Below, in pieces: positions 47,801 through 50,084 of a stretch of DNA of 64,000 bases; the first letter of the stretch is position 1; each line of letters opens with the position of its first letter. The DNA comes from Cyanodermella asteris. Lineage: Eukaryota > Ascomycota > Lecanoromycetes > Ostropales > Stictidaceae. A model generated the notes under the pieces. That model made no database searches and was not told where the DNA came from. It saw only the letters and a list, made by a program, of their open reading frames with translations. The stretch lies in the NCBI GenBank assembly GCA_900618795.1, contig UYJD01000015.1:689034-753033 (forward strand). Direction: 5' to 3'. A program made the position numbers and the translations under genes.

Positions 47801-48962
47801 AGACTCAGTACCCTTTGCAACCCTGGCGAACTCGGCTCAATCCGTGATTTCCGCCATCCAATCGTTCTCCAACTTGACCACCACTTTATCGCAGGCTGTT
47901 GAATTCTCCAAACCTCAATCGAGCAACCTTTCTGCGCCTTCAACTCCTTGGGCCCAGCTCGCGCTATCCTTACGTGAAGAGTCGTCTGCGTCAGCAGGTC
48001 ACGAAGCTGAGATTGCTCGATTGAATGATCAGCTGAACGAGCGTGGGACTGCGATTGCACTCAAGGATAAGGCGCTGGACGAACTCAATGTTTCGGTTGA
48101 AGTGCTCGAGAAACGTACATCCGATGCGAACAAGGCGGTCACTAGAGCCCGTGAGCTTGAGCAGCAACTTAATCAGGCCGAGCGCAAGAGCCGTGATCTT
48201 GACTCGCGTCTCCAGCGATCAGTCGAGGATGTGCGATTACTGAGGATGGAGCGCGAGTCGTGGCTAGCCTCTGGCGCAGCTAAACCAGGTGCTGACGAAG
48301 CTGGTGAACAAGGTGCCGAAGTTGCTCGCGCTCCTGTACATCCAGAATTTGTCTCGGCAAAGGCTGTTAGTGAAATTACCGCGCTGAAAGCCGAGCTTGA
48401 AGCAACGCAGACCGTCGTCAGACAGCTTCGGACAGCCTCGAATGAAGCCAATCTGAGTGCAGCTCAAGCAGATGGCATTCTCGAGAGCCTTTTGACAGAG
48501 CCCAGCAAAGAGGTTGAAGAGCAGCAGGCCTGTCTTCGCGAAGCAAGCGCCAAACGTGCCTTCAAGACACTGCGCAACCTCGTTTCGCGAGATGAAGCGC
48601 CATTGGTAAATCTGGACGCTGTTGCTCGCGATGACCGTCTGACATGGAAACCACTGAAGGAGACGGTAGCTTGGCAGGTGGGACGAGCGCGAGACGAATG
48701 GAACAGTTGGCGAGATCTTGTGGGACTCGTGGCTAAGGATGAGCTCACAGCATCGAAGCGACGATACATCACAAGCAAAAGCCAGCACGAGAAGAGGCTG
48801 TCTCCTGTAGAGGACACCAAATCCTCGCAAGGCCGGGTCCTGGCGAAGCTGACCCTCCGAGGCCTTTCAGAATTGCGACCAAAGCCCTTCGACGGCCATA
48901 TCACGATTGTCGACGGGGAGGAATGGGATGGCTTGGGACGTAGGCTTGGGATGGTCTACTAG
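44850..48962 (+). CDS. Dynactin large subunit p150Glued
   Basis: Microtubule plus-end binding subunit of dynactin, which links dynein to cargo (N. crassa ro-3, yeast Nip100). Single exon, 1370 residues. The CAP-Gly domain at 1-72 has GRVGTIRWLGSGEFAEGEF and GKNNGEVKGVKYFDC, where GKNDG is usual. A basic Ser/Thr/Pro-rich linker (~75-300) is followed by a long coiled coil (~325-640), then the conserved dynactin region (~640-870) beginning near KTQIKIVDTDLKRLDAQEA. A second coiled coil (~1055-1130) and a C-terminal domain complete it. The start at 44850 places CAP-Gly at the very N-terminus, as in relatives. Confidence 0.95.
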   Translation: MGELAKYKVGQVIQLGDGRVGTIRWLGSGEFAEGEFLGLELDDASGKNNGEVKGVKYFDCPDNHGLMVRPSSITEILQEPTAPVPKAATAVAKRTSLVGPSSNGARTTTAVAKRTSMAAMPAGHKPTLMDPTSKRQSINGSSPTPASRGMASRALPSPTKAPTKPAPGRPSSILGPPKSVVSGTRPTTTSTAAKRTSLAGRPTPAGGPAAARSTRAPSITSNTSSSKPSVTGPTKKPANRLSTLQQPATRRSASISSRTEIGAPGSTGLDEDDGQGILQEEGDELTDASIRKAPNAGRALLSPPAATRDPTSPSLSRPTTQQLSAQNRKIDDLETKLRVLEKQKAEDKERLKDLERLSGERDKFEGIIQKLQSKIQPQAQELIQLRKELKEMTERATAAEGAQASVDEVIEEAALDREMAEELAESYKSELDQIRKSHEELKLEVEILRAENEDLGREMSPEERNSMGFAQLEKSNERLREALIKLRDITQDTEAELKDQIKDLQDETQELSELKVKFEDSQEHLEQNETLIDELKQQLETVQGSEEMIEELTEKNMALTEQIEELKGVVEDLESLKEINDELELNHVEHEKAMQEDINYRDALLFEQARKMSEQDEFVEELEYTVSRFRELVANLNSDLEEMRSSQQITEAEANDLSNRTKTMLDLNMRLQQTAAKTQIKIVDTDLKRLDAQEAADHLAIVEMFLPETFAKHRDSVSTFLRFKRVSFKAMILHGFFKEKVNGLAVPGHEEDMFAACDILDKLTWIGAMCNRFVTFITSCSLNVFSNIGSATYDLDPVERMFNGFIENLKRDEVKDQKCAADLARTMSVLEHLGERYLGQGLADYAEAVHMRALVMQSRLDSGASAVAHIRSIAQARIVLPSDADETDEEEAQKFLSKADSVVTQIRSAKVIASKALHQIEELQSRSLTLEPSTQAAIEATELLVNNLATSCRASGVSVAKLVNQDSRLDSLKFEEVMQAVSPEDSVPFATLANSAQSVISAIQSFSNLTTTLSQAVEFSKPQSSNLSAPSTPWAQLALSLREESSASAGHEAEIARLNDQLNERGTAIALKDKALDELNVSVEVLEKRTSDANKAVTRARELEQQLNQAERKSRDLDSRLQRSVEDVRLLRMERESWLASGAAKPGADEAGEQGAEVARAPVHPEFVSAKAVSEITALKAELEATQTVVRQLRTASNEANLSAAQADGILESLLTEPSKEVEEQQACLREASAKRAFKTLRNLVSRDEAPLVNLDAVARDDRLTWKPLKETVAWQVGRARDEWNSWRDLVGLVAKDELTASKRRYITSKSQHEKRLSPVEDTKSSQGRVLAKLTLRGLSELRPKPFDGHITIVDGEEWDGLGRRLGMVY

Positions 48963-49070: not shown

Positions 49071-50084
49071 TTATTGCAGTCGCGGACGTTTGAAGAATGA
49101 TGATATTTTCTGTTGTCTTTCGTCGTACGCCGCGGAGCCAACACCCCGGGTTCGTTTAAGAGCCGCAAGGTGTTGCGTGGAGTTAATAGCGATGATACGA
49201 ATTCGAAGCGGACGATCTTTGTGCTCGTCGAGTCGATTCTGTACGTCTTCAGCCCTGGCCTGGCTCGTCTCAGGCAGGTTTTGATCAACTTCTGAGCCAT
49301 GGAAAGAGTCGTCTGCAAATATGTCCTCGTCTCTCAGGCCGTCGGTGTGTGTAGCTTGTCCATGCTTGGTATGTACCTCCTTACCCTTTGCTTCTTCTGA
49401 GAATGAAACATCCACTTCTAAGTAGCCAGTATTTCCCCAGGCTCCAAGATGCTCTAGTCCTCGAGGTCCAATCACGATGTTATCCGCTAGGCGAACTTTC
49501 GACAAGGACGATTTTGAGAGCAAACATTTCCATAGACGAGAAAGCAAGAGACCGTGAGAGACCACGGCAACTTTACAATCGCACTCCACAGCCAACAAAG
49601 GAATCAGATGATCGTCTATGAAGGCAGCGGCGCGCTTATCAAGCGAGGCTTTTGTTTCTGGTGGAACAAGTGGAAGGGATTTGGATGCATCCAAAGTTCG
49701 ATTCGACGCCCATGGCTTCCCCTCGAGAGAGCCAAAATCTTGTTCCCGCAGTATCCTCAGCTCTATGATACCGTCAGGACTGGCCGGGGGCCCATTGCTA
49801 GATTCGGCTGATTGACTCGTGCACGCATTGAGGATAGCTTGCCCGGTCTTCCTTGCTCGCTGTAAGTCGGACGTGAAGATGGCGGCAAAAGGCGCATGCT
49901 GAGCTGCGAGATGTTGACCTAGCCTCGCGATTTGAAGAACGCCGTGATTCTATGAGCCAGACTCAGTTCTCAAACTCTGCCCGACATGATTCACACTTAC
50001 AGTCAAAGCGCTATCGGTCACGCCTGCGAGATGGCCGGCGACATTGTCCACAGTCTCTCCGTGCCTGATCATGAGTACCTTCAT
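49071..50084 (-). CDS. Histidine phosphatase (phosphoglycerate mutase-like) with C-terminal PIP-box
   Basis: Histidine-phosphatase superfamily enzyme with phosphohistidine intermediate. Exons 50084-50001 and 49949-49071 join over a 51-bp intron (GTAAGT...CATAG), giving 320 residues. The catalytic motif MIRHGETVDN has its His at residue 8. Further motifs are TSDLQRARKTGQAI, the Glu region LREQDFGSLEGKPW and the second His in VAVVSHGLLL. Beyond the enzyme core is an acidic, charged linker and then NSTQHLAALKRTRG. The protein ends QQKISSFFKRPRLQ, an exact QxxIxxFF PCNA-interacting motif with basic flank that could also act as an NLS. The core is not close to glycolytic PGM. Substrate unknown. 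Confidence 0.85.

Follow-up and report, generated by a model that had tools for sequence, protein, structure and literature searches.

Does a fungal phosphatase carry, at its own C-terminus, the means of binding to PCNA? The question is raised by the minus strand of the window, the whole stretch of 64,000 nucleotides of Cyanodermella asteris DNA (contig UYJD01000015.1) that was analysed. There, positions 49071-49130 hold the final 19 codons and the TAA of an open exon, and the encoded protein ends in DERQQKISSFFKRPRLQ. The initial annotation had read this end as a PCNA-binding PIP-box on an enzyme of the phosphoglycerate-mutase fold, with a possible nuclear role at replication or repair. The features to which the analysis refers are given below.

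The phosphatase gene and its product

49071-50084, minus strand: phosphatase gene (spliced translation free of stops, consensus splice ends, Pfam His_Phos_1)
50084-50001, minus strand: exon 1
50000-49950, minus strand: intron of 51 nt, GTAAGT...TCATAG, phase 0
49949-49071, minus strand: exon 2, with the TAA at 49073-49071
50058-50066, minus strand: RHG motif, residues 7-9 (read from the sequence)
49743-49751, minus strand: LRE motif, residues 95-97, the start of LREQDFGSLEGK (aligned with LRER..G..EG of TIGAR)
49551-49559, minus strand: SHG motif, residues 159-161 (read from the sequence)
49215-49400, minus strand: acidic linker, about residues 212-273 (crude charge-hydropathy index; may contain an in-frame intron)
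49146-49232, minus strand: TIGAR-like end, residues 268-296 (..RIRIIAINSTQHLAALKRTR; second profile match, 1.0 bit)
49074-49145, minus strand: C-terminal tail past the TIGAR-like part, residues 297-320, 24 residues (read from the sequence)
49092-49115, minus strand: PIP-box-like QQKISSFF, residues 307-314 (read from the sequence)
49080-49091, minus strand: basic flank KRPR, residues 315-318, directly after QQKISSFF (read from the sequence)

The two exons join into a frame without stops, and the product is a histidine phosphatase of 320 residues. Residues 4-173 match Pfam His_Phos_1 (E 2.4e-22; 80 bits against a Pfam cut-off of 21.7), and this match, together with the RHG and SHG motifs, places the protein in branch 1 of the histidine phosphatase superfamily. 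We take RHG at residues 7-9 to be the catalytic motif of the superfamily, and SHG at residues 159-161 presumably holds the second catalytic histidine. Since RHG, LRE and SHG are all present along with the domain, the 320-residue protein should be an active phosphatase.

The phosphatase core extends to about residue 211 and is followed by the acidic linker (about 212-273), the TIGAR-like end (268-296) and the tail (297-320). The fold index, a crude charge-hydropathy measure, is negative across windows 201-281, and by this index the linker looks disordered. The length of the linker is uncertain because a donor-like GTAAGG and two acceptors sit inside it. An alternative intron with its donor at 49384 and the acceptor TTTGCAG ending at 49313 would span 72 nt, and a longer version (49384-49292) would span 93 nt, with the frame kept in both. 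If real, such an intron would possibly remove 24 or 31 residues of the linker and leave the tail unaffected. Splicing away of the tail was considered as well and rejected: a GTRRG donor is absent in or after the tail within the gene, the sole such donor of exon 2 being that of the linker at 49384. Structure prediction, run on exon 2 with two bacterial homologues, yielded a model too poor for use (mean pLDDT 41.8, pTM 0.36). Against the solved structures, the tail alone had no matches at E 10, and the end of the core with the last strand matched two photosystem subunits only (E 1.3-1.4), which we judged to be noise.

Two frames flank the gene. It is adjoined by a convergent gene, a long frame ending at 48962, which by eye encodes a CAP-Gly, coiled-coil, dynactin-like protein. 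On the other side, an ATG-started open frame of 135 residues (50572-50165, minus strand) without a Pfam match lies upstream and stops 80 bases short of the start of the phosphatase; it could be either a small gene or a piece of an unrecognised one.

Probable kinship with TIGAR

We compared the phosphatase with TIGAR (human 3dcy, zebrafish 3e9c), which likewise belongs to branch 1 and has RHG, LRE..G..EG and SHG in common with it. Of the histidine phosphatases of the genome, seven were set against a profile built from the human and zebrafish TIGAR sequences. The phosphatase fits it best, at 34.2 bits, followed by the other six at 20.2, 20.0, 8.6, 7.4, 0.4 and -2.6 bits, in a ranking that omits two weaker loci (on contigs C18 and C7) and for which certain frames may be incomplete. 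The larger part of the score comes from residues 5-114 (30.6 bits). Residues 268-296 align weakly (1.0 bit) with the final 29 TIGAR positions, in the expected place, and shuffling gave p values for this C-terminal match of 0.0013-0.0016 with human TIGAR and 0.036-0.040 with zebrafish TIGAR. The PIP-box-like motif lies wholly outside this TIGAR-like part, which fits a docking tail.

Other comparisons temper this kinship. The closest solved chain in a search with the whole protein was the phosphoglycerate mutase 1fzt (1.9e-6), with zebrafish TIGAR 3e9c behind it (2.5e-4, residues 4-110), so that TIGAR is not the nearest solved relative. Every NCBIfam match fell far under its cut-off. A search of the genome with zebrafish TIGAR, exon by exon, returned a single match (C24:462763, E 0.175) and missed the phosphatase gene, for which the 28-codon first exon may be the explanation. 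We regard the protein as likely TIGAR-like on modest kinship, and as no more than a candidate TIGAR orthologue. The fungal protein differs from TIGAR by two additions: a long acidic linker ahead of the last strand, and the 24-residue tail with the PIP-box. Human TIGAR ends at the aligned end, without such a tail; zebrafish TIGAR also lacks it in the compared sequence, which stops at residue 252 of 265.

Relatives were sought in prokaryote and viral contigs only, so the outcome is neutral on conservation among fungal orthologues. A degenerate REQDFGxxEGK pattern found two deltaproteobacterial phosphatases in prokaryote genomes, both shorter and without the tail, and had zero matches in viral contigs. 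Two patterns combining KRTx with the PIP-box likewise had zero matches in viral contigs, and the whole protein returned five pattern-matching stretches there and no relatives.

The C-terminal motif, chance and the rest of the genome

The particulars claimed for the C-terminus held. QQKISSFF at residues 307-314 is an exact QxxIxxFF, with Q at position 1, an aliphatic residue at 4 and aromatics at 7 and 8; it ends six residues before the stop, and the free C-terminal position claimed for it is real. The claimed basic flank is there in KRPR. The motif thus sits in a terminal segment with a positive flank, disorder being indicated by the crude index only. Motif and flanks together carry a net charge of +3, compared with +1 to +4 for seven motifs of the same genome that were picked by us, one of which belongs to an acetyltransferase (L088) that is no known PCNA client. 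A second basic cluster, KRTR, is also present in the phosphatase.

PIP-like motifs overlap with the motifs that bind Rev1 and Mlh1. The tail could accordingly serve one of these other readers, or the basic clusters KRTR and KRPR could make it a mere nuclear import signal. Q at position 1 and I at position 4 are, however, features of a PIP-box, and the Rev1-type motif is helical by its consensus, which the proline of KRPR would disfavour. We consider these alternatives very improbable. Two other signals were rejected. The protein ends in RLQ, which departs from the consensus of a peroxisomal signal. A PIP-degron is defined, in PMC6881253, by TD ahead of the aromatic residues together with a basic residue at +4; the tail has S-S where T-D is required, and R does occur at +4.

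Could the motif have arisen by chance in a disordered, fast-evolving tail that has no partner? Expectations were computed from the amino-acid composition of 22 frames of the window that run for 250 codons or more from stop to stop, 13,180 residues in all; these are open frames of unchecked gene status, some of them antisense. By this model QxxIxxFF would fall in the last 20 residues with a probability of 2.9e-5 per protein, 5.8e-4 (about 6e-4) for a 20-gene window, and an expectation of 0.29 (about 0.3) per 10,000 proteins. The looser Qxx[ILMV]xx[FY][FY] gives 3.8e-4 per protein, 7.6e-3 per 20 genes and 3.8 per 10,000 proteins. The strict motif is therefore unlikely at this place, yet one per proteome would not be astonishing, and a single C-terminal case is not so rare as to be its own proof. 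In favour of chance, the motif was also picked after inspection of the whole window, and elsewhere in the genome it turns up in folded proteins or in contexts that are clearly unrelated. Against it stand not only the low expectation for the window but also the fact that the four motif residues lie at the extreme C-terminus and are followed by a basic flank. On this balance, we hold a chance origin to be unlikely.

The genome survey (28.5 Mb, 25 contigs) bears on both sides of this question. The DNA pattern for QxxIxxFF has 113 copies (61+52), compared with 39 (22+17) for the reversed pattern; 100 of the 113 were read, namely that of the window and 99 others. Among the matches listed, a stop falls inside the motif at 10 of the 99 places, and at least 100 open codons lie upstream at 18 of the 99, a count in which 29 short stretches can show at most about 100 upstream codons. 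Three of the 99 matches listed combine at least 100 open upstream codons with 20 or fewer residues to the stop. One is the C-terminus of Cdc27/Pol32 (L070; PF09507, E 3.5e-52), which ends in QGNIMSFFGKK; another (L116) looks, by eye, to be the folded end of a methyltransferase; the third (L072) is an open frame that may or may not be a gene. Many other places are short frames, non-gene positions, or folded or unrelated proteins, and the motif alone is therefore not specific.

Proteins that would be expected to be PCNA clients, Cdc27/Pol32 among them, also occur at these 99 places. Two MutS-family proteins carry the motif N-terminally, QRSILGFF (L051) and QASISSFF (L077), and in each case a MutS_I match follows shortly downstream in the same orientation; by eye we read them as MSH6 and MSH3. 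An XPG-type nuclease (L017) carries QANITKFF, and upstream of it, in the same orientation, lies an XPG_N match. In addition, FEN1 (L044) carries QSRLEGFFKPKPK, with L at position 4, and another XPG_N protein (L045), EXO1-like by eye, carries KKPIDSFFKPRR. The tail of the phosphatase resembles these motifs, which agrees with the initial claim that it has the arrangement of a genuine PIP-box. Its closest counterparts are Cdc27/Pol32/POLD3, in which QxxIxxFF likewise stands at the extreme C-terminus, and FEN1, with a near-identical motif and a basic flank. Both of these act on DNA, whereas the fungal protein has a small-molecule phosphatase domain.

Possible docking on PCNA and what it would mean

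We favour, at a probability of roughly 0.6 and on sequence evidence, the reading that a TIGAR-like phosphatase with an added PIP-box tail docks on PCNA at sites of replication or repair. The flexible tail of 24 residues, appended with its canonical PIP-box to the C-terminus of the phosphatase, would seat I310, F313 and F314 in the hydrophobic PCNA pocket, with Q307 beside the pocket and KRPR against the acidic surface of the clamp. Binding would retain the enzyme, presumably in the nucleus, at replication or repair sites. Held there by the clamp, it could dephosphorylate a small phosphorylated metabolite, which by analogy with TIGAR may be 2,3-bisphosphoglycerate, fructose 2,6-bisphosphate or other three-carbon phosphates. 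The interpretation of the initial annotation, a phosphatase tethered to PCNA, is favoured by the motif, its place, its flank and the linker that looks disordered by the crude index; its identification of the enzyme is refined to the nearest to TIGAR among the seven compared.

A putative partner for the tail is encoded in the same genome. The PCNA gene (C19:649020-649450) aligns over its full length with solved PCNAs and keeps MDNSHV, LMDIDQEHLGIP and FYLAPK, the segments that we take to form the pocket. By this alignment the pocket, so defined, is intact. PMC6881253 bears on the strength of the predicted contact in two ways. Positive flanks are reported there to raise the affinity of PIP peptides for PCNA. 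Canonical PIP peptides can also be weak binders (FEN1 45 uM, MSH6 3 uM), which weakens the docking reading.

Binding to PCNA need not imply a role at DNA, as the tail could act in the cytosol within complexes of metabolic enzymes. Complexes of PCNA with glycolytic enzymes, including phosphoglycerate mutase, are reported in PMC9937922, which also notes a putative PIP-box in 6-phosphogluconate dehydrogenase, and these complexes therefore support a DNA-free alternative. ENO1 and 6-phosphogluconate dehydrogenase resemble the phosphatase in being metabolic enzymes with a PCNA-interacting motif, according to PMC9937922; they differ in belonging to other families, and the motif of the phosphatase lies in a tail past its TIGAR-like part. 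Against a cytosolic role, KRTR and KRPR resemble nuclear import signals by eye. We judge this alternative to be distinctly unlikely.

If docking at replication or repair sites is correct, a further proposal can be made, one that we regard as rather unlikely: in fungi, a TIGAR-like phosphatase would be wired to the clamp, either to clear by-products of repair or to shift sugar phosphates to ribose and NADPH. On the first branch, by-products would be removed at their source, for example phosphoglycolate from trimmed oxidised DNA ends. Phosphoglycolate can be released from such ends by APE1, as stated in PMC6380167. This branch is disfavoured because the title of PMC6380167 holds that phosphoglycolate is most likely not involved in a metabolic DNA response in cancer cell lines. 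On the second branch, ribose and NADPH would be favoured where DNA is made. As for TIGAR itself, the review PMC6131595 states a preference for 2,3-bisphosphoglycerate, 2-phosphoglycerate and phosphoenolpyruvate over fructose 2,6-bisphosphate. According to PMC4415581, nuclear TIGAR rises upon treatment with epirubicin or CoCl2, and DNA damage is aggravated when TIGAR is knocked down. On this proposal, the part that TIGAR is reported to play in the nucleus and in DNA damage would be built into a single short tail.

If a metabolite phosphatase is confirmed to carry a PIP-box tail of its own, this would be genetic evidence that part of metabolism is deliberately sited at replication or repair. Most known PCNA clients are cell-cycle regulators or work on DNA or chromatin. 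In a fungal relative that has a docking tail, the tail could be separated from the enzyme, the one being altered and the other left intact. Searches of the open-licence literature, judged by titles and the starts of abstracts, brought up no phosphoglycerate mutase, histidine phosphatase or TIGAR with a PIP-box, in filamentous fungi or elsewhere; such a protein may be published outside that literature.

Two further proteins of the genome came to light in the survey. One (L088; C13:933100-936123, minus strand) has 301 residues and begins with MASIAKQTKISAFFRSKEV, an N-terminal QxxIxxFF. It is a GNAT acetyltransferase (Acetyltransf_1, E 1.2e-5), NAA50-like by eye, and is possibly another unusual client of PCNA. 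The other (L064; C11:357809-360832, plus strand) is a long open frame with no match in Pfam; it carries QPRIKGFFANFKERK in a charged and probably disordered region, and is a candidate PCNA client.
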